64,000 nucleotides of DNA. Origin: Aphrocallistes beatrix (lineage: Eukaryota; Porifera; Hexactinellida; Sceptrulophora; Aphrocallistidae). A program made the position numbers and the translations under genes. The stretch spans positions 248,001-312,000 of the forward strand of contig OY725492.1 in assembly GCA_963281255.1 (NCBI GenBank), given 5' to 3'. The notes under the pieces were generated by a model, which had not been told where the DNA came from, did no database searches, and was given only the letters and a program-made list of their open reading frames with translations. Shown piece after piece: positions 1-57,764 of this stretch. How positions within the stretch are numbered: position 1 is the first letter of the stretch; every line of letters begins with the position of its first letter.

Positions 1-3000
1 AGTTGTTATGTTTTGGGGTGGTTGGTTTCTCAGGCGCTTCGAAAACTGGAACCTGACTTGTTTCTTCACACTTAGGCGTTTCATCCATGGTTGCGTATTC
101 TTCCTCTGCACTTGAATTGAAAATCAGAGATGGAATGGTGATTAGTTTCGAAGCGCATGAGAAATGGGCGCTCTCATCCAGAACTTCGATTTGTTTAAGT
201 TGCACTGGTGTTTTAAGTTCTTCCTCGCGAACCTTAATTAATAGTTAGTAGTGATAACAAATTGTGATGAACTGAAAAATTAACCAAATATTTGATTATT
301 TTAGCCAACTTGGTCAAAAGATCTTAATAAATCAACTAATAATTCTCTTCGAAATTCGAATAAAAAAGTGGACAAAAGAATGATTTAGGGATTTTCGTTA
401 CGAAATGTTCCCTTTTAAATGATGAAATAATATTAGCATTATTCTTACCTGATTCTCAAACGCGAGGAGCTGTCCCATAAAGTTGAGATTGGGTGCCACA
501 CAAGGCCGCCTGGCCTTTATAAAGTTGTAGGCCTGATATAATCCCATCTTATAGTACTTAATCATGTATGCTATGGTAATTGAGACAGAACGTGAAATGC
601 CAGCATGGCAGTGTATAAATACCACGGATCCATCTGTTCGAGCTTTCTCTGTTGAGTATAAATAAAGTTAGATCATTGATTTTCTCTTTGTTCATTCGAA
701 AAAAATTAACTCACCAATAAAGTCGAATGCTTTGTTGAAATGTATCGACAGGTTCGCTCCTGTGTTATCTTTCGACGGCACTCGTAAATACTGGAAATCC
801 TTTTCAAATTTGAAAGGAATGTGCTCCGACACATTAATTATATGACCAATCTTCAGATTCTGGAGAGTAGTTTTATTCTCTGAATCATATACGTTACCTA
901 GTACCTAGCAAATTACCAAATTAATAAATTTGATATATTAGAATCTCATTCTTTGCACCATCATATCTCCACATCTAAGCTTCATTTCCTCTCAAATCAT
1001 TTTTTACGCGTACTCACCAAATGTGGAAGGATTTTTGCAGGAGGTGCTTTTTCCCATTCCGCTGTTGAGATGACATTGGAATACATCCGAATGAGCTTTT
1101 CATTACTGTCTTTGTCTCCATTAGAATCTTGAGCTGCATCAGTACATAAATCCTGGTACAAAGTACTGAATTCTTGGAATCCACCTAAAGGAATAATTAT
1201 TTTAATTAATTAATCGATTTCTAAGACAAAGTACAGCCCTCCGAGAAGCGGAAACCCCTGTAGAATGGACAAACCTCGTGGCTTTTTTTTTCTTTTAAAA
1301 ATGATCTTTAAGAATTACTCAGGGTTTAAGTGCATCTTTAATCTGTTGTTAGATCTGCAATTTTTTGGTAATTCAACTCCATGAACCCCCATATCTGTGA
1401 GTTTAATACATGTACATATTTATAAACTTGTCTAAGATCTAATTTCTTTTGAACTCTTGTTAGCTAGGGGCGTAGGCTCAGGAGAGGTTGGCAAGGCATT
1501 CTTCGATTAAAATGGAATTACTTATTTAAAACCTTGGGATGCATTGGGGTACATCCTATTTATAGTAACTACTAGTTTTTATCTGGCTTCCCTACTAAGA
1601 ATAGCTTAAACCGGAAATGGCGTTACAACATTCCTACGCAACGAAGGGTTTTAATCGTGCTGCGGAAAATTTAAATTTGAGAACTAGTCACGATTGAACC
1701 TACCTATAATGCGCAACAAGAAAATATTTATAAATTGTAATTGTAACTAATAAAAGCTCAGTTTCAATTTTGAAAGCTCACACGAGAACTTCATTATACA
1801 TTTTTAGCGATTTTCTACTGGTACGAGAAGATCAGAGCAATCCTAGTTAGCTAGAGATCAGCATCATCATCCTTCTTAGAGCAAAAGCTTAGATCACATT
1901 TCGCAATAAAATTAGGAAACAACTATGACGGTTGAAATGTCAGTTTTCACTCGAATTTAGCCAAAATTACATTCGATTATTAATTAATTAATTATTTAAT
2001 AAGATAACTAATCATTTCTATTTATAGTAATGACCCCAAATTTCTATGGCTTCCCCGCCCAAAATGACTTAAACCGGAAATGAGTAAGCATAATTCTTTT
2101 TCCTTGGTTAACATACAGTTAGCATGACTTCATTGCATTTGCATCTGATAAGAAGTCTAACCTAAGTTCAATGATTTTGCTTTTTTAATTACCTAATTTA
2201 CTTTATGATACAACAGTTATCTAATCGTGAAATAATGTATATCAATTTTCGATTTCGAGAAATCTAAAAATAGCAGCGTAGGATGTATGTAGCAAAGTAT
2301 CACCATTGGAATGTTAATTAATTATTCGTAATAGCATCTCGTCTTACCTTCCATCGCTTTGACGTTCAAATTTTTCTTTGTAATCAAATTCTGAAGAATA
2401 TCCTTCATGCTACCTTGTATACTTGAGCCGTCATAAAAAATGGATAAATTGTTCTCCATTTTCTTCACGATTTCATTTGCATTTTGTGATACTAGCAGAA
2501 GGTCAGATAGTTGTTTCGTTCCTCTTAGAAATCTCTTTACCATCATCGGATTATTGTTCAATAGAACCGCCTGTTTAACGTGACTCTGTGAAAATTCATT
2601 ATCGTTTCTGCAATCGAGTAGTATAATTCCTTCTTCTAAATTAGAAACACAAGATTTAATAGGTTGCCAAAAAAAACATGATTTAACAATTGGATAATAA
2701 AATCTTTCCCTTGTAACTGAAACGAAATATTAATATTAGGCCACCTAAGTGTATCTACTCCGAGCAAAAAAAGTAAAATGAACCTTTCAAAATGCTCCTT
2801 TACAAAACTCCCTCATCAGACAAATAATGAACCGTAGGAGGTCACGTGTAGATATTCTATTTCATATTAGTTATTTAATTACGCCAACAAACAATACCTG
2901 GGTTACGTAATACAGAGAATTTAATTAAGTTCGGTACAAGGGTCAAAAGCCAGGTCAAAATAAGCTAAATGGAATTTTTAGATATCAGTTGTGAACCGAT

Positions 3001-3216
3001 TCAAATCATCGCCGTTCTTAAGAGCTAAAATGTATCGAGGGAAACTTCTTTCGATGAATATAATATACAATTGTGTGAATTCTCAGATACGGATCTGATT
3101 AATAACAGACCTGAATTGATTTTTTCAACCACTTCTTTCATCGAAATAGTCGGTGAATTCTGGTTATTCGTGTTTGTTCCTGTTATGTCATTTCTTTTTG
3201 GTGCGTTCAGTGTCAT
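1..3216 (-). CDS. MAP-kinase phosphatase (dual-specificity), 3' end off window
   Basis: Rhodanese-type MAPK-binding domain plus dual-specificity phosphatase domain; the family removes phosphate from Thr and Tyr of MAP kinases. Exons inferred from splice sites with matching phases: 3216-3069 (first exon, tentative), 2716-2348, 1184-1018, 904-715, 648-449, 232-1. Exon 2 carries the rhodanese start (ILLDCRNDNEF). Exon 4 carries the start of the catalytic domain (GHIINVSEHIPF). Exon 5 carries the signature HCHAGISRS, i.e. HC-x5-R with catalytic Cys, followed by PNLNFMGQLLAFE, typical of MKPs and close to DUSP10. The last exon is still open at base 1, so a C-terminal tail continues, as in DUSP8/16. 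The 1184-2347 intron holds two copies of a dispersed repeat. The family is certain, the subtype is not. The first exon rests only on a phase-1 donor near 3068 and the phrase MKEVVEKINSG. Confidence 0.82.
1556..1622 (-). repeat. 70-bp dispersed repeat, copy 1
   Basis: Most diverged copy of the CGGAAATG...TTTATAG block, inside an intron of the phosphatase gene. It keeps TATTTATAGTAA and AGCTTAAACCGGAAATGG. Confidence 0.6.
2013..2082 (-). repeat. 70-bp dispersed repeat, copy 2
   Basis: Copy with GGCTTCCCCGCCCAAAATGA and TTAAACCGGAAATGAG, inside the same phosphatase intron as copy 1 and in the same orientation. Confidence 0.7.
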
Positions 3217-4341
3217 TCTAGCAATAACCGGGGTCAGGCCAATAGATCAATAAGTCCAAATCTCGATTGTTTTTCGTCTCCGTATCTTCTTGAAAGATTC
3301 TCTCCTGTCTTTTCGTTGTTGTCAATGCAATATTTTCCATAAACTTATCCAATTAGAATCAACAAGAATGATGTTGCCTTCTTGATGTCGGCTTCTTATC
3401 CTTTACAAAACTCTTTAAAATTTATGAAATAGTGTGATAAAATTATGAAATATTGTGATATCTAGACATTGAGGGGTCAAATAAAATACGATTCCGTCAT
3501 CGAAAATGTCTATAATCACCTTTTTGAGTTTAGAAAAAGATATATGTAATGTTCCACAATATTATGATTGAGAAAACTTTATTTCTAATGCTAATTCAAA
3601 ACTTTGAATTCTAAAGGAAGAGAAGTAACTTGAAATACGTTAAACTTACGTTCAAATTCAATCTGTTAGTCTCGGACAACGTCTAGGAGATCAATCTTTG
3701 CGATCGTTTAATTCGATTTTTATTTGTTCCCTTGTTTCGATGTAGTGGACAAGCTTTTTATAGGTTAGCTCAAGATTTGAATACTACCTTGTACAATAGC
3801 GATTCCAAAAGGCATAGTATGGTCAATTCAATAGCTTCTTTATTTCTAATTACCTCATTTGCTGCTAAATTTAGCTTCTATAGACAGTACGAAGCCCTGG
3901 ATTAGTTGGTGAATTGATATTACTTACAGGATGAATTGATATCTTCCAGCACGTTTAGACTCACACTTAGACTCCCTATTTGTGATATTGACACGAATTT
4001 TAGTAATCAGCATAAATCTATTACTTTCTCGCCAAAATATCTACTTTAAATCGATGTTGTAACATGAAATATGCCGATTATTTACTGATAATTTCAGATT
4101 AAAATTTTTTTAGCATATTTTGTGTTGCTAGTGTTGTTTAAACAAAAATTCATTGATCATATATTTTTCTTTCAAATTTACATGTATTTATTTTAATCAA
4201 GACTTTAAGAATATTGGCACAAAACAGCAAAAAATATACAGCAGTAAGTTTATAAGAAAAGTTCTATCAAAATCAATATTAATTTAGGAATTATCTTGGT
4301 TAACTTGTTTCAATTTCTTTCTTGAATTGGAACAGAATCAT
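3217..4341. other. AT-rich intergenic spacer
   Basis: Lies between the starts of the phosphatase gene and the end of the SAM-domain gene. I see no conserved coding exon, RNA gene or clear repeat. It presumably holds the phosphatase promoter and the 3' end of the SAM-domain transcript. Confidence 0.5.
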
Positions 4342-41425: not shown

Positions 41426-43379
41426 CTACTCAATTTTCAGACGAGAATACATGTAATAAACCAGACTAAATGAACTCAGGAATGCCACAGTTCCTAGCAT
41501 GAGAAACAGGATATAACTAGCTATGAGCATGTACCCGAAATACTGCAGCCCTTGTAAGAATCCGTGCATTTCAGAGTTGGTATAGTAGAAGTAGATTCCA
41601 TAGCCTAAAACGAACAGACTCAGAGCACCAACTGAGTTAATTGAACGCCACCACCAATGATAATCTTCCAGACAAAGTTGGAAATAGGTTAGAGTGATTG
41701 AAATGCAAGCTGACACAAGGAGTAGGATGACGAAAAGAATCAGCAGGATACTGTACAGCGCGAAATATTGTCTCCCCCACAGTGTAAGATAGATGTAATA
41801 GATTTCGATGGAGATAGCACTGAAAGGCAAAAATCCACCCACCACCATATACAACCAAGTCCGATTGTACCAAGGTTGTACAGGGATTTCGCGAGGAAAC
41901 ATTTTGGTCCGGCAAGGAGCGCTTAATTGATTTGTCATGTTTTTACCGAAAATGCCACCTAAAATGGTCAACGGCAATCCAACAATGAACCAGAGCAGGA
42001 AAAGTAGAATTATAGTTGAGATAGGGAGAGCCTGTGTCGAATTGAAAACCCAAGCGAAAGAGTTAATCAATGACCATATAAGGAAGAAAGGCACAAAGAA
42101 TATCGCGAATGTCAACACTATATTCCAATACCACAATTCACCGCCGAGCTTTTTATAACAGGCACTTGATATAAACCCAGAAAAGCAGGACATGAATGCG
42201 TATAAGAGAATTGTCATTGCGTTGGCAGAGCCGTGGTGATTCTGTGAGAGAAATCCAGCTGCTTCCAATGAGAGAAGGGTGAGCGCGAGAAGTATAAATT
42301 GTGATCCGCTGCCCACGATGGAGCAGAGTAGCATCTTGTTTTGAGGCACTCGGAATACGTCTCCGTTGATCAGTTTCCACCCATAGTCTTCTAAGATATC
42401 ATCCTCTGAGTTTACGTTGTAACTATTGGGAAAATTGGCCAGTAAATCTAACTAAAAGAATTTCTTAATTAATATGATGTATATTGATTGCATTCATTTG
42501 CAAGTGTATCAATGTATTTCTAAATTCGTAGTAAACTCGTCTATGTCCCTGAAAAGTCAAAGTTGGGGGTTTTCTCTGTGGCAACAGTTTCGAATTCGAA
42601 GTATGTATGTCATAAATAAACTTATTCTACGTGTACCTTGAAATATCTTGTCTGAGATTCTTATGCAATGTTGTCATCATCAGTCCCACCAGCAAGATAC
42701 ACAGAATACTCGAGTTAATGACAGACATCCAATGAATCTGTTTTGCTTTCGGAAAGAAATCCAGCAGTTGATTGCCTCTCCCTTCATATGTTGCTTCAGT
42801 GGGTTCCCATCTCACTGAGTAGTAGAAATCCATATGGAATGGTGCATCCACGTCGTTTAGATTAATCGGGTCTTCTGTGCTCGCTACAACGCGTGCTGAC
42901 ACAATATGCCGTCCGTTATACCTGAAAATGAAATGTAAATTATTCCAGAGGTAGATGTTATGCTGGTGCGGGAGGATTGGTCCCTCTTCGAAATGTCCTA
43001 CAAATCCTTGGAACATTAAATCATCCACAACGAATTCGAAATAGTACAGATCTTCAACAGCACGCTTCAACTTGCTCAGGTCCTTCTCATTTATGAAATT
43101 CGTACACAATTTCGTCTTTTTCTTATCCACTCCAAATTGAATGTCGTAAATCGAATGGGCCATGCGATCACCATCTAGAATCTCCCCTAGGGTCATGGGT
43201 TTATGCTCAATCTTATCGGGCGTACACACTGGCAGTGTGTAGTAGTGATACGTCTCCTGTGGGTTGTAGTAGGGACCGACTTTATTGACATAAATAAGCA
43301 CATCGTCACCCGCTTTGTATTCCGCACACTCCAAGAAGTTGAGAGTTAGGATGAGCGCCAGGAGAACAATGAAGCGCAT
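41426..43379 (-). CDS. TM9SF1: transmembrane 9 superfamily protein 1
   Basis: Nonaspanin of the endosome/Golgi membranes. Two exons, 43379-42637 and 42422-41426 (phase 2), 579 aa (human 606). Signal peptide MRFIVLLALILTLNFLECAE. The lumenal domain starts KVGPYYNPQETYHYYTLPVC and includes LGEILDGDRMAHSIYDI and FEFVVDDL, which separate TM9SF1 from TM9SF2-4. Then nine membrane helices; conserved stretches STQALPISTIILL, GGIFGKN, REIPVQPWYNRTW, GGFLPFSAISIEIYYIY, FFMLGT-like LFLMLGTVAF. The C-terminus YYMYSRLKIE matches the family's K-x-D/E type retrieval tail. The intron is 214 bases. Confidence 0.97.
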
Positions 43380-43611: not shown

Positions 43612-44952
43612 TCATAGCTCATCCACAACTTCTGCTTGTGCAGCATCAGCACCATCATCGCCTCCTTTATTACCCGCTGGCATATAGTCGTCTTCTCCCC
43701 CTTCATGTGGATACTCGTTTATCACAGAATGCAGATCACTCCTCGCGTCTACCATCTCTCCCTCCTCCATTCCGTACCCCACAAACCAATGCACATAAGC
43801 TCGCCTTCTGAAAACATTATCAAAAGTATTCGCCTCCCTAATTAGAATATTCCTCATGCCTGTGTTATTAGATAGACTGCCTAACTCAAACTTGTCAAAG
43901 GCTGACATTCCAAGAGGAGTAGACCGAGGATCAATATGGACATTTTCAAAAGCACTCTTCTCTAGCTTGGCTTCGTCCAATTGTTGCTGAATAAGCAAGG
44001 AAGGTGTAAGCCCCTTCGTATAGAATGCATTTGCTAAAACTTCCTTATAAGGACAACTAGCTAAGACAGCCTCTCCTCCTTTAACGCGAGGGAAAGCTTC
44101 CTCAAACTCAATCACCTCACCGTCAACACCTGCTAGCCGTGCATAAGAAGGAATAACATAGTTCAAGTGCTGCTCGACAATCAGCTTACTCAAATCAGTT
44201 AATCCATTGGACTCATTCAATCGGTTAGCGCCTGTTACTAAACTCATCACACGTGCCACCTCCAAGTTAACATGATCAAATCCCAAGTCTAATACGTTGG
44301 CATGCTTTGCGCTGGACCCGTAGAGAGCCTCGTTATCAAACACAACACGCAGTGTTGGGGGAAAGCAGTAGATCAGACTTTGTGAGATAACAAAATTGTA
44401 AGTATCAATGATCGACTTTGCAAGGTTTGGGGAGGGAATTAGACCAAAGTTGATGTGCGTACTCTTGCTGAACTCGTCCTGTAAAAGTTGTAAAAAGCGG
44501 CAATACACACCTGAACATCCTCCACTGTAAGATACTGTACTCAAGAAGCATGGCGTTTTATCGCAGGATTCAACCATTTTGCGAAATTTAGGTCCAAAAC
44601 CTTCGGCCATCGATTTAGTATAGAAACCGGCAGCAAAGTTACCCATTGCATCCTCGTTATCTGTTATAAAATTGGTTTCTGGATCTGTTACACCTTTGAT
44701 GGGACCTTTTTTCAAATGAGAAATGTCCTGTCCATCCGGATCGATGAAGAGTGCTCGAGCGCGATTGAAACCGTTTTCATTTTGATAGAATAAAGCCTGG
44801 AAACGTCGAAACAAATTTGCCCCCTCTCCATTCTTGAATTTAAAGTTATGCTCGTGACTCGCTAGTTCCCAGAATTTCTCACCAAAAGCACTCCCTGTAC
44901 GACCGAAATGTAAAGCCAAATAGTCTGTCCCGTCATTTGAATTGGTGGCCAT
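43612..44952 (-). CDS. highly divergent tubulin
   Basis: Single exon, 446 aa, the usual tubulin length. It aligns along the whole fold: LALHFGRTGSAFGEKFWELA for the first nucleotide-loop region (normally G-QAG-QIGN), FAAGFYTKS for NYARGHYT, SYSGGCSGVYCRF where the glycine-rich loop GGGTGSG belongs, VFDNEALYG for VDNEAIYDI, and FRRRAYVHWFVGYGMEEGEM for helix 11-12. The tail is acidic (EGGEDDYMPAGNK ... VVDEL). The nucleotide loops are changed so much that GTP binding is doubtful. The alpha-type pattern (helix 11-12 and tail length) is the closest. The intronless form could reflect an old retrocopy, but the frame is intact, so it is probably expressed in a special cell type. Confidence 0.85.
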   Translation of the reverse strand: MATNSNDGTDYLALHFGRTGSAFGEKFWELASHEHNFKFKNGEGANLFRRFQALFYQNENGFNRARALFIDPDGQDISHLKKGPIKGVTDPETNFITDNEDAMGNFAAGFYTKSMAEGFGPKFRKMVESCDKTPCFLSTVSYSGGCSGVYCRFLQLLQDEFSKSTHINFGLIPSPNLAKSIIDTYNFVISQSLIYCFPPTLRVVFDNEALYGSSAKHANVLDLGFDHVNLEVARVMSLVTGANRLNESNGLTDLSKLIVEQHLNYVIPSYARLAGVDGEVIEFEEAFPRVKGGEAVLASCPYKEVLANAFYTKGLTPSLLIQQQLDEAKLEKSAFENVHIDPRSTPLGMSAFDKFELGSLSNNTGMRNILIREANTFDNVFRRRAYVHWFVGYGMEEGEMVDARSDLHSVINEYPHEGGEDDYMPAGNKGGDDGADAAQAEVVDEL

Positions 44953-45144: not shown

Positions 45145-48062
45145 TTAGTCTTGAAAACTCCTTTGGATGGTGATGTGTGTGTACGACTTCCTCAACTCTG
45201 CTACAACACTTTCAGAGAAATGTGAACAGAATGACAGATCCACTAGACACAGTTTCGGGCATCTTTTGAATAAATTTTCAATGCACTCAACCGTCAAACT
45301 CGAGCTTCCCAGCAAATCCAACTGTTCCAGATCTGGTAAGCTAGTAGCGATCGAGGTGATAAGTTCTGGATTTGAATCCCGGCAAGTTGTTAGGAATAAC
45401 TTTTTCAGTTTTTTACAGGATTTAACAAACATACCAAGTGTCGAGATATTTCTTAGAGAAGGAGTCCATCCTAAGTCAATATCTATCAGCTCAGTACACC
45501 CAGACAGCAGTGATAGACCGCCTGCTGAGATGTTACTCCGCCATAAATCAAGAGCTTTTAAAGAGGGGCAACTGGCGGCCAATTGATCCGCTATATTATC
45601 CATGGTTAGATTCTGGATAGCTCCTAAATTCAGGTATTCCATATCCACACAAGCTTTTAGGATGTCAATCAGAATATCGTCTGTGATTTGACAGCGATAC
45701 AGATTCAGATTTCTAAGCTTGGTGAGGTGTTTGATGGGTGTGAATGCATCCGGTTTAAGGTGTATACACGCTTGGAGGTCGAGCTCAAGTAGGCTTTGAC
45801 AAGTTTTAGAAATGCGTTCGATACTCTCGTCGTTTATAAACCGACAACAACCGAGTCTTAACACTTCAATCGTTTCTCCGCATTTTGTGATAAAATCATG
45901 GAAGACTTCAGCTGTTATCTGTCCGCCAGCTCCTACATAATATCAGAACATAAAAACAACAATCTACTTAAGTATTTTACCAAGATTAACCAAGGATGAC
46001 TGCATTTTGAAATTTTTTGTATAAAAATCGGATTCTTGAAGCCATTACAACTCCAAAAGTTTTGATCATTTTCTCCCGAAATTTTGTGTGAGAAATAAGA
46101 AAAATTATAAAAGTTACCTAGTTTGTAAAGGAATTCGATAAAACTTCAATACCCTATGCCCCTTTTAATCAATTATTTTCACAAATGGTTAACTACCAAC
46201 CAGTCCAGCTGAAGCTGACTTCCTGTAAGCATTGGGCCCTCAGCTGAATGGCTTGAATTCCAATATCATCTAGAGATATCCAGAAAGGCTGTAGATCCAA
46301 TTCCCTATAGTTGATCGGATCATAAGCTATGTACAGCAGCCGACTAGATGTACACGCTATGCTGCACAAGTCTCGGACATTCAAATAATTGAGAATTTTA
46401 AGAATAGTTTCATTGGGGAGAATTGAGAAGTATTCCATATCTTCATTCGTAGCTGAAAATTTCAAGTGTTTTTCGTCCTTCTTAGCGGATTCAGACGAAA
46501 CCTAAAAGTAGTAATGAAAAACTATTGTAATACACCAAGGATACAAACAAATACAGTCAGGGTCGCTTATTATGAACCCGCTTAATATGAGCATTCGTTC
46601 ATTATGAACTAACCCCCTGGTCCCAATGCCATTTTTAGATAGGATTTGTATTCAATCAAGTTCGCTTAATATGAAGTACCGTAAACTGGGGCGACTTTGG
46701 ACCTAAGAGGTGACTTTGTCCCACAATAGCAATTTTAATAAAATATACTCAAACTTAGAAATACTGCTAATAAGTTTGAGTATATTTTATTAAAATGCTA
46801 TTGTGACAAAGTCACCTCTCTTAGGGCCAAAGTCGCTCCAGTTTACGGTATCTCTATTATGAACAGATTATTTCGTCCCCTGGTGGTTCACAATAAGCGA
46901 CTCTGACTGTACGTATATTCCGAAATTTTACCTTTTCCAATAACTTGGCTGTGTTCTCAATCTTGAATCCAACGGATCTATCTTTCAGATTTTGCTTCCC
47001 AGACGCTTCATTACCAATCAACCCGATTCCATCCAATTCAGTATAATAATCCGCCTCTGTGCAATCGAACTCGATACGCAAGAGGTTGGTAGGGAAGTCA
47101 ATCTTGTTCAAGGGAGGGGAAAAACACCTGGAAGTTTTTTCAGTCGTCTTCGAAGTCGCCGCACCTTGCCACAGCAAAGCCCATTTTATCTCACCTGTCT
47201 TGAAGTCACCTTGCAGGTTTCTATTACACGCGTAAATCCGTACCACACAACCTACATTTCACTCAGAAATAATTAAAATGCACAGGAGAACTTCGTTAAC
47301 CTCCGTTGCCCCTGGAATGTGTCGCATCATTTCCGGTTTAAGCCATTTTGGGCGGGGAAGCCATAAAAATCCGGTGTATTTACTATAAATAGAAAAAAAG
47401 CCAAGCCATCCGGGGGTTTTAATAACGAACACCACACGGTCTTTTCATATTAACCGGAGTGATTTAGATGTAACCAAGAGATTGCCTAAGAGCGCGAGAC
47501 GCTCCTTAGGTTTATGATTTTAATCCCGCAAGTGTTTAGGAGCGTGAAAAATAGGAATATTACTAAATTTACCCTACACATTATAATGTTATTTATCGAT
47601 TTAGAAGTTAAAATTAATTGTTTTGGTGACTAGGAGCATATCTCTGTAGGGCTGTATAATACCCTGATGTAACGTATCAGGATTTTTGTAGTGTTCGTAT
47701 GAGGTTCTCGTTGCAAACTAACCTGGGTTGAAAGTTTCATAAATCTGTACTTCTGTGGGGTATAATTGTGTCTCAAATAGCACTTCTATGAAATCCTGGC
47801 TTGTAAACCCATCAACCGGTTGTCCTATGGGCTTATTAGTCATTGGCGCCTTTGCCCACCATGATCCATAAGTTCTTAACACCAGGGATGTCACGAAATC
47901 TCCATACTTGGGAAAGCTTTGGGGATCACCGACTATATTCTCAACTGTGTATGACTTGAGTCGTATGCCATATTCGCTTGAATAGTTAAGGACTTTCGTA
48001 ACGAAGTATATATTCTGGCTCTTATCTATCTGTGCGTGGAACTTTTCGAACAGTGAAGCCAT
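45145..48062 (-). CDS. FBXL4: F-box and leucine-rich repeat protein 4
   Basis: Mitochondrial outer-membrane SCF subunit; human FBXL4 restrains mitophagy by degrading BNIP3/NIX and is mutated in mtDNA-depletion disease. Four exons with matching phases: 48062-47723, 47251-46932, 46501-46201, 45932-45145; 582 aa (human 621). N-terminal discoidin-like region: VLRTYGSWWAKAP, YPTEVQIYETFNPG, FPTNLLRIEF, YYTELDGIGL. F-box (LPNETILKILNYLNVRDLC). Then LRRs (LDLWRSNISAGGL; LLDLG-type IDIDLGWTPSL; LCLVDLSFCSHFSESVV) ending in IQRSFQD as in human KKSFTQ. A cleavable mitochondrial presequence is not obvious. Introns 1 and 2 contain a dispersed repeat and nested MITEs. Confidence 0.95.
46554..46909. repeat. 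TA-flanked MITE interrupted by a second MITE
   Basis: Outer element: CAGTCAGGGTCGCTTATTAT at the left and GTTCACAATAAGCGACTCTG at the right, inverted, flanked by TA. Inside it sits a near-perfect palindrome (46679-46848) with TACCGTAAACTGG / CCAGTTTACGGTA ends. It lies in FBXL4 intron 2. Confidence 0.9.
46679..46848. repeat. inner palindromic MITE
   Basis: Arms of about 80 bases are nearly perfect inverse copies (e.g. TGACTTTGTC.CACAATAGCA against TGCTATTGTGACAAAGTCA), flanked by TA duplicated from the host element. The RNA would form a long hairpin. Confidence 0.9.
47327..47395 (+). repeat. 70-bp dispersed repeat, copy 4
   Basis: CATTTCCGGTTTAAGCC, then TTTTGGGCGGGGAAGCC and CTATAAATAGAAA, within the first intron of FBXL4. 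Confidence 0.7.
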
Positions 48063-54878: not shown

Positions 54879-57392
54879 CTATGATATACCGAGGTGAGAA
54901 AATGCAACCTGTTTTTCTTCCTCCAATTCTTTCGTAGTTAGTTCAATCTTTCCCCTCGCGAAATCTGACAAGGTCAGCCCGGATACAAACTCCCAACTAC
55001 CATTCTTAACAACCACAGGGAAAGAGAAAATAAGTCCCTCCGGAATGCCATATGGATTGCCATCAGAACACACGCCCATTGATACCCAATCTCCATCCTT
55101 GGTGCCAAACCACCAATCATGCATATGATCACATATGGCCTGAGCAGCTGACATCGCAGAAGACAGTTTCCTCGCCTTGATAACAGCTGCTCCACGGGTC
55201 TGTACAGTGGTAATGAAATCTCCGTGGACCCAAGCATCGTCACTCAAAGCTGCTACTGTACTTTTATTGTACCCAGCTATAGTAACTTCACTATGGGCCA
55301 GGTCAGGGAATTGAGTATTGGAATGGTTGCCCCATATGGTAACCTTCCTTACGGCTGACGGTAGCACGCATAGTTTCATCGAGGCCTGTGCTTTGGCCCT
55401 GTTGTGATCGAGCCGGGTTAGACAGCTGAAGTTCTTCTTTGGAATTGAACTGGCTAGTTGGCTGGCTATAAGACAGTTTGTGTTGGCAGGGTTACCGACT
55501 ACTAACACTTTCACTTCCTTCTTTGCAACCTCATTAATGACGGCTCCGTGCTCTTTGAAAATACCGGCGTTTCTCTGTAAGAGCTCAGCTCGCTCCATTC
55601 CCTCTTTGCGAGGGAATGCTCCTACCATCACTACTACGTCCACCCCAGCGAAACCTTCCTACAAATGTAAATTGATAGAACTACTATTCGTAGGTAAATT
55701 TGTGTAATGTGGGGAAATTCCAGTTCATTTGGATTTATTTTTCTGGGGTTTTACAAAATAAATTTTGTGCAATTTTGCACTAATATAATGACATAATCAT
55801 TTACCTAATTTGAAAATAAATTTTCTTTTAAGAAAAGTAATACTTATGATTACATAAAAATTATGTAAAATTTGCTTGTTTATACTTAGGTCCAACTCTT
55901 AATTAGGAATTCCTGGTTTACACATAAACAATAAAATTGAAAGTGTCCAGTAGTAAGATTCAAAATAAATCCATTCTAAAAGCATTACTCAATCTAGCAT
56001 TAGTTAGATCTTATTAGTTATCTTTTTAGGTAATGTACAGGGTGTATCATAAGTGTTGTCGGGTAATATAATTGAATGTAAAAACCCAGAATGTATATCA
56101 TGTATATATTTTCACTTATTTATGTAATCTCCTCGACTATTTATTACTGATTTAATACGATCAGGCATACTGGCGACTAGATTTTCCAAGATATTCGGGT
56201 CAATGCTTGCCCAGGCCTTTTTTACTTGAAAAATCAGGTCTTCGATTTTAGTGACATTCTCCATTTGACTGACACTATCCTTCAAAATCGACCATAGATT
56301 CTCGATAGGATTGAGATCGGGTGAGTTGCCTGGCCACTCCCCTTTACGCCAAAACCCTGGGAAATGCTCTGCACACCAGACTTGAGTCAAATTTGCTGTG
56401 TGTGCTGGGGCACCATCCTGCATGAAAATAAAATTCGACATGTTTGAGAGCATTGACTTCTCCATTATTGAACCATAATCCGACCTACGTTCAATGGCAT
56501 CTTTACAGGTCTTTTCCAGAATATAGTTTCGGTAGTAACAACCATTTATCGTCTGTTTTTGCGGAACAATATGCAACTCAGATACTGCACGATGTGACAT
56601 CATGCCCCAGACGTTAATTTTTCCAGGAAATTTGACTTGAACACAAGGCTCAACCTCAGCTGAATTCCGAGCCCAAACACGATCATTTTGTCTATTTGGG
56701 GTATTGAACAATTGAAAGGGTGCTTCGTCAGACCACAAAACGCGTTTCCAATCCTCAACAGTCCATTCTTTGCGAAATTCAGCAAATTTTAGACGGTTTT
56801 CCTTCATTTTCGCAGTCAATCGCGGGATTTTTGGCCTTTTAAAGGATCTCACTCCTAAGCTATTCATATGAATAGTATTCAACCAAGGGATTACTTAGCG
56901 GAATGAGACACTTGTGTACAAGCATTAGAAAGATACGTAGTTGTAGACAGCCCTAATAATATCAGTGGTTCTTTAACTAGGGTACTAGAGGTACACCAGT
57001 GTAACGTAGGGTATTTGGGGTACAGAATTAACCGCTACGTATTCACTTAAAACAAATAATAAACAAAAATAAAACGCCTCTGTCCTTAGTTTTATAGAAA
57101 AAAGATGGATGATCAACAGGTACCTAGTCTACATGGCCTTAATTCAATTGCTTACAGTTGGATTGGAAGTTGGGAAAGCTGACTTTAGCAAAGTGAGGCC
57201 ACAGTCTTCCAACTCAAACACAACCCCTTTCACTGCCTCCATCACGGGTTGAACGTCCAGGAGAGTGAGATTCAGAGGCTGGTTTTCACCGAACATTTTT
57301 CCATCACATATCATGTAGAGGAGTGAGTAAGCAATCTGTCCGCCTGCTCCAGTTATGCATACCTTCAGAGGGGATTTTTCTGCAGACGCCAT
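54879..57392 (-). CDS. MDH1: cytosolic malate dehydrogenase
   Basis: NAD-dependent malate/oxaloacetate interconversion; cytosolic arm of the malate-aspartate shuttle. Two exons, 57392-57156 and 55658-54879 (phase 0), 338 aa (human 334). NAD-binding loop [14 protein letters not shown], cofactor Asp in [20 protein letters not shown] with the mobile-loop Arg, [14 protein letters not shown], catalytic Asp/Arg region [10 protein letters not shown], active-site His in [13 protein letters not shown]-terminal [15 protein letters not shown]. Residue counts across the splice match the family exactly. ATG 57392 is used because the family starts there; a frame-open TTG lies five codons upstream. The 1.5-kb intron contains a transposase relic. 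Confidence 0.97.
56112..56882 (-). mobile_element. 5'-truncated Tc1/mariner transposase, DD37E type
   Basis: 256 aa of the DDE catalytic part: first Asp in [10 protein letters not shown], second in [11 protein letters not shown], Glu in LNPIENLW, with 37 residues between the last two, so a DD37E-type member of the IS630-Tc1-mariner superfamily. The N-terminal helix-turn-helix DNA-binding domain (about 90-100 aa) is absent before residue 1, although the frame has no stop. No matching pair of terminal inverted repeats was found, so the copy is probably dead. It lies inside the MDH1 intron on the same strand as MDH1. Confidence 0.92.
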
Positions 57393-57764
57393 GGTTCTAG
57401 CTAGCAAAAGTGTTGGAAATATTTCACTAAGGACTGTATGTTGTTTCGGTATTAAAGTATTTGCATATACGTATAAGACATTCGATCATTCCTCAATGCT
57501 CTATATCGATATTGTGATATCTTGGAAATTGATGATATTTGTCACAACTGACAAATAAATAGTGGCAGATATATTATTTTGGCAATTAATTAAATTGTTT
57601 TTTTGGCTAACATTATTTTGGCAACTAATGGAATTAATAGAATTTATTTGCCAAAATAATGCCATTTCAGTTTTTTTGCCAAAATAACACAATTTAGTCG
57701 CCAAAATTATGGTACATCCAAATAGCAACGTGTATGTCTAAAATACACCTCGTCATCTATTTGT

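Follow-up and report, generated by a model that had tools for sequence, protein, structure and literature searches.

A divergent, probably alpha-side tubulin with a shortened GTP loop in the glass sponge Aphrocallistes beatrix

Tubulins are characterized by a glycine-rich T4 loop with the signature [SAG]GGTG[SA]G. In ordinary alpha-tubulin the bound GTP is structural and is not hydrolysed, while the T7-H8 loop reaches the nucleotide of the neighbouring subunit and carries the catalytic residue E254; alpha-tubulins also possess an 8-residue insert between S9 and S10. GTP binding links tubulin folding, dimer formation and microtubule dynamics. A tubulin maintained by selection without the canonical phosphate loop would, if real, offer a natural experiment as to which steps need the nucleotide, here in animals with syncytial tissues, and would constitute a tubulin counterpart to the septin pseudoGTPases.

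The latter, according to the sections of PMC10731463 consulted, resemble the protein described below in that they are paralogues of cytoskeletal GTPases with a changed or lost nucleotide pocket and a retained fold; septins belong, however, to an unrelated GTPase class, and where repeated loss of GTPase activity is concerned the abstract sets them against tubulins. The plasmodial tubulins of Physarum (PMC9294176, in part) offer another likeness, namely divergent isotypes in a multinucleate body, although the organism is distant and the portions of that paper considered here do not mention a lost GTP loop. In the demosponge Halisarca all alpha-tubulins are reported to keep their nucleotide sites, and one divergent gamma-tubulin is regarded as a likely pseudogene (PMC11082956, in part); in the part of PMC3820024 considered, GGGTGSG is kept in all isotypes found in Fasciola, five alpha and six beta. 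Among the open-licence matches listed, judged by titles and the openings of abstracts, none concerned hexactinellid tubulins or an animal tubulin without the T4 signature, and the word tubulin does not occur in the main text of the glass sponge genome papers PMC10280926 and PMC10282587.

The gene and its nucleotide pocket

The window analysed here, a 64-kb stretch of A. beatrix DNA, contains on its minus strand a gene (Table 1) that runs from ATG to stop and encodes 446 amino acids with no internal stop, whereas the longest stop-free frame among 20 mononucleotide-shuffled versions of the window had 174 codons. A genome search returned one DNA copy only. TATA-like and poly(A)-like sites occur at the gene, and equally in 28-29% of shuffles; no Rfam family and no tRNA was found within the window. 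The protein matches the Pfam tubulin GTPase domain (PF00091, E 1.8e-21, 77.7 bits, cut-off 33). A PDB sequence search yielded 170 distinct sequences at E 0.001 or better, the best 60 of which were listed, with the alpha-tubulin 4ffb_A on top (E 1.3e-37) and the first beta-tubulin among the matches listed at 4.9e-31. The homology extends along the full length, and the sequence-only reading of an intact yet strongly changed tubulin with the usual length and order of parts is borne out. Its further statement that much of the body is unalignable went too far: each of the 23 other tubulin models in the comparison can be aligned with the protein along its length, identities being 16-27% (24-27% with the conserved alphas).

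Table 1. Features of the tubulin gene and its neighbours, in window positions
Feature	Position	Strand	Basis
Single-exon gene for a divergent, likely alpha-side tubulin of 446 aa	43612..44952	minus	ORF, Pfam, PDB
T1 loop GRTGSAFGE (residues 17-25); in alpha numbering, R for Q11 and T for A12	44878..44904	minus	alignment
T4 glycine-rich GTP loop, with SGGC-SG in place of GGGTGSG (one residue missing)	44509..44526	minus	DNA and alignments
T7-H8 region, 4 residues fewer than in alpha-tubulin; site of the longitudinal contact and of alpha E254	44167..44214	minus	alignments
AYVHWFVGYGMEEGEMVDARSDL..., a segment preceding and entering H12 whose sequence is alpha-like	43711..43800	minus	ORF, PDB match, alignment
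C-terminal tail, acidic (11 D/E and 1 K/R in the final 38 residues) and not ending in Tyr	43615..43710	minus	composition
Downstream neighbour: EMP70/TM9SF gene, first part (second part 41426-42349), separate from the tubulin gene	42627..43379	minus	Pfam
Upstream neighbour: leucine-rich-repeat protein, probably F-box/LRR, separate from the tubulin gene	45145..45864	minus	ORF, Pfam

The F-box assignment of the upstream neighbour rests on an ORF at 46193-46465.

The first loop is present exactly as had been read, and so is the GTP-loop string SYSGGCSGVYCRF, with SGGCSG (residues 143-148) in the place of GGGTGSG, which departs from the T4 signature. We place the one-residue gap inside the loop because the next helix, FLQLLQDEF, matches the paralogues gap-free; an ungapped alternative (SGGCSGV) was dropped, as this helix fits better with the gap. 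The pocket was tabulated for 14 rows (the window protein, a reference and 12 other paralogues) at 29 nucleotide-contact or adjacent positions, a list that we take to represent alpha-tubulin structures. The T4 deletion is confined to the window protein among these rows, and with 12 of 29 positions kept it retains the fewest, the 12 other paralogues (reference aside) keeping 16-26. Both T1 and T3 are altered. The changes comprise Q11 to R, A12 to T, A100 to M, N101 to G, G142 to S, T145 to C and the deletion of G146, and further Y224 to F and E71 and E183 to D; D69, D98, A99, S140, G143, G144, S147, G148, N206 and N228 are unchanged, the base side thus keeping both asparagines and an aromatic residue at 224. 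Non-conservative changes strike otherwise conserved nucleotide motifs, a sequence mark of pseudoGTPases. Since two T4 glycines, the following S and G, D69, N206 and N228 remain, a nucleotide may still bind.

We considered and rejected the idea that the nucleotide site is specially degraded. Where nine conserved alphas and betas are all identical, the protein keeps 10 of 19 positions in the site versus 38 of 85 in the rest, with no significant difference (p 0.61). Nine other paralogues keep 13-17 of the 19, and in eight of the nine the site is kept above the rest (the exception is L017, 15/19 vs 73/85), significantly so in L020, L028 and L034 only. The nucleotide site is thus least protected in the window protein, but it is degraded no more than the remainder of that protein. 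Special conservation of the C-terminal helices, which the sequence-only reading called textbook, was rejected likewise: the string YVHWFVGYGMEEGEM is present, but H11-H12 retain 8 of 14 invariant positions vs 40 of 90 elsewhere (p 0.40). Change is greatest in the middle domain, where identity to the conserved alpha L021 is 3/32 at 263-297 and 7/54 at 298-358, vs 19/39 at 398-436.

Compared with alpha-tubulin, the protein shares length, order, fold, best sequence and profile scores, the alpha-like H12 segment and an acidic tail, but it differs in the short T4 and T7-H8 regions (in the latter, E254 is replaced by an aligned K, or by D if another gap is placed by eye), in the absence of the alpha-specific S9-S10 insert and of the terminal tyrosine, and in a gap at the position of K40. 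Folding as a tubulin is established at the level of homology, with a structural model in support. AlphaFold2, run with seven alignment rows, gave a mean pLDDT of 59.7 and pTM of 0.70, with ten-residue blocks at 49-87 for residues 11-240 and at 25-35 for 271-360; the 50 Foldseek rows listed were all chains from tubulin-holding entries (TMq 0.67-0.72, rmsd mostly about 7). A control fold of a divergent Polyangia tubulin from the same seven rows reached a mean pLDDT of 73.1, and 38-67 over 271-360, a stretch in which it too is weak, though to a lesser degree. The model of the window protein hence backs the predicted tubulin fold, but neither the pocket, for which a structure prediction had been proposed as a check, nor details of the middle domain.

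Placement and relatives in the genome

Profile scores favour alpha (168 bits) over beta (117.5), with epsilon at 67.4 and gamma at 27.8, the last two profiles being built from single sequences. The main tree comprised 19 of the 24 assembled models, leaving out the near copies L022, L010 and L018 and the partial or very distant L059 and L060; the near copies C7_1543k, L014 and L019, plus L011, were outside the tree set from the start. In this tree the window gene pairs with L020 (90/93), and a branch with 98/99 puts this pair on the alpha side. No other of the 19 rows has an end branch as long as theirs (2.89 for the window gene, 2.23 for L020), and the tree program warned that their union, as a join of two long branches, may be false. 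Without L020, alpha placement falls to 59/34, and constraints to beta (AU p 0.156) or to gamma/epsilon (p 0.222) are not rejected; of 33 fixed alpha/beta differences, the window protein has 6 alpha-like and 9 beta-like, and L020 7 and 10. We therefore regard the alpha side as likely rather than proven.

The link between the window gene and L020 appears to be more than an effect of branch length, because the pair exclusively shares 14 residues with respect to the 18 other rows, against 1-8 in 26 of the 27 other long-branch pairs and 23 in the remaining one, L028-L035. A looser count, which requires absence from the 12 conserved rows alone, gives 19 for the pair, 29 for L028-L035 and 5-17 for the remaining 26. 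L020, located at C1:7976762-7978011 (L020:1492-2756), is 27% identical to the window protein, has the IDPD.QD motif in common with it, and retains SGGTGSG and a nearly full T7-H8; it is the likely sister of the window gene. Its frame is interrupted by a single frameshift after NEGV, the halves being otherwise open, which is either a recent lesion or an assembly error.

The window gene is not alone, as the genome holds, besides the likely sister, several other divergent tubulins. A search of the assembly (100.5 Mb, 28 contigs) found tubulin matches at no fewer than 39 places, many of them exons. Gene models give, as lower bounds, two conserved intronless alphas, five multi-exon alphas and three divergent alpha-side genes (L024, L028 and L035), together with twelve betas, of which three are conserved and intronless and L017, L025 and L034 are divergent. 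By their motifs we take L061 for gamma, L023 for epsilon, and L059 and L060 for delta/zeta-like tubulins. L028 (C3:6396 kb) and L035 (C14:4064 kb) are divergent intronless alpha-side sisters (100/99) with changed T3 loops. In the beta cluster on C8, L017:1294-2661 has GGGFGSS as its T4, a T7 two residues short and an open frame with one intron; its pairwise dN/dS is about 0.23-0.31 against four neighbours (NG86 or YN00) and 0.10-0.20 among those neighbours, so that the changed T4 loop is compatible with a constrained, if somewhat relaxed, gene.

The lack of introns, weighed as a hint of a new role or a retrogene, is no clue, since single-exon genes are common among the conserved tubulins of this genome (the alphas L021 and L022 and the betas L010-L012 are also single open frames) and in another glass sponge, A. 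vastus, for which 19,578 genes and 12,409 single-exon transcripts are reported in the part of PMC10282587 consulted.

Selection and competing explanations

In simulations of neutral point mutation that took a conserved alpha gene down to 26% identity, none of 200 runs remained stop-free (mean 15.2 stops), and the first stop appeared at a median of 94.7% identity; the simulation is lenient, because indels were absent from it. The window protein keeps 48 of 99 family-invariant vs 52 of 318 variable positions (p 7e-10), and L020 50 of 101 vs 60 of 309 (p 1e-8). The simulations and the retention of invariant positions together indicate selection over most of the history of the gene, the present day aside, and the decaying copy named as an alternative in the sequence-only reading is very unlikely if decay is taken as purely neutral.

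The explanation that we favour, and consider somewhat more probable than not, is a lineage-specific alpha-side paralogue in the glass sponge, selected to fold as a tubulin, with GTP binding weakened or lost and probably not serving as an ordinary lattice subunit. Very fast evolution under selection for the tubulin fold would have produced a shortened and substituted T4 and altered T1 and T3, by which the structural GTP would be held weakly or not at all, and a shortened T7-H8, which could not serve the GTP of the neighbouring subunit normally. Because both longitudinal faces are changed, we infer weak or lost binding of structural GTP, rather than lost turnover, and abnormal protofilament contacts. 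The protein might then act as an accessory tubulin (an end cap, an adaptor or part of a specialised oligomer) and not as an ordinary protofilament subunit, although the accessory, capping or specialised role is a guess. More speculative, and in our view improbable, is the extension to glass sponges with a GTP-independent tubulin, in which the window gene and L020 would both have kept the fold, and the former, having lost the phosphate and neighbour-sensing loops, would build or cap a stable, non-dynamic structure of the syncytium.

The observations also fit in part an ordinary fast-evolving alpha isotype, used e.g. in sperm or in one flagellum, that still holds GTP by way of a reshaped loop and co-assembles into polymers with a divergent beta that matches it, which we see as a possible but lesser prospect. 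The divergent betas L025, L034 and L017 and the alphas L024, L028 and L035 could provide such matches, the base-side nucleotide residues are retained, and ten alpha-tubulins are reported in a demosponge, but the same report describes intact nucleotide-binding sites in every one of them (PMC11082956, in part), and in the window protein T4 and T7-H8 are both shortened, the T4 deletion having no equal in the other rows of the pocket table.

A recently silenced gene, long selected and now decaying with its frame still unhit, is doubtful: the frameshift in the likely sister makes a loss within the pair possible, but there are no disabling lesions across the 446 codons of the window gene, and since the first stop comes so early in simulated decay, such decay could only be recent and could not account for the divergence. 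Hardly probable at all is a separate old family of non-alpha tubulins drawn to alpha by long branches. The AU tests without L020, the mixed fixed differences and the missing S9-S10 insert speak for it, but the alpha profile leads beta by 50 bits (by 83 in L020), and with L020 included the pair falls on the alpha side in the main tree (98/99).

Other observations in the window and elsewhere

Elsewhere in the window, a DDE_3 transposase-like frame (56112-56894) lies on the minus strand, at 54879-57485, between two pieces (54879-55658 and 57144-57485) that we take to be malate-dehydrogenase-like, and is perhaps a transposon within an intron.

Searches of public viral contigs with the window protein, a conserved alpha or the alignment A1 returned no relatives. 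In public genome contigs A1 found seven loci, six of which were aligned with the window protein at 21-28% identity. Two metagenomic bins contain adjacent same-strand tubulin genes, beta-like followed by alpha-like, namely a Polyangia MAG (L068:968-2311 and 2497-3264, on a 413 kb contig) and a Myxococcales MAG (L067:3-965 and 995-2317, beside an ORF that we presume to be DnaJ-like). If the bins are right, these Myxococcota pairs would be BtubA/BtubB-like genes outside Prosthecobacter.

A homeobox search of the sponge genome found 19 places, 18 of which were read; we take these to be of the NK/Msx/Bar-like, POU, LIM, paired-like, Six and TALE types, with no Hox. Frizzled has three matches in the genome; Wnt and Wntless have no match there, nor in the control genomes, so that true absence is not implied. 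Oopsacas minuta is described in the part of PMC10280926 consulted as being without wnt, wntless, dishevelled and frizzled A and as keeping frizzled B; the Prd class is likewise reported missing there, whereas the present genome has two paired-like homeodomains, which agree less well with Oopsacas. With Frizzled present and no Wnt or Wntless match, the gene content resembles that of a glass sponge, and Trichoplax was discarded as the source after searches for Bcl-2, homeobox and Wnt genes. For two glass sponge genomes, sizes of 61 and 80 Mb are given in the consulted part of PMC10282587, and the assembly used here is larger.
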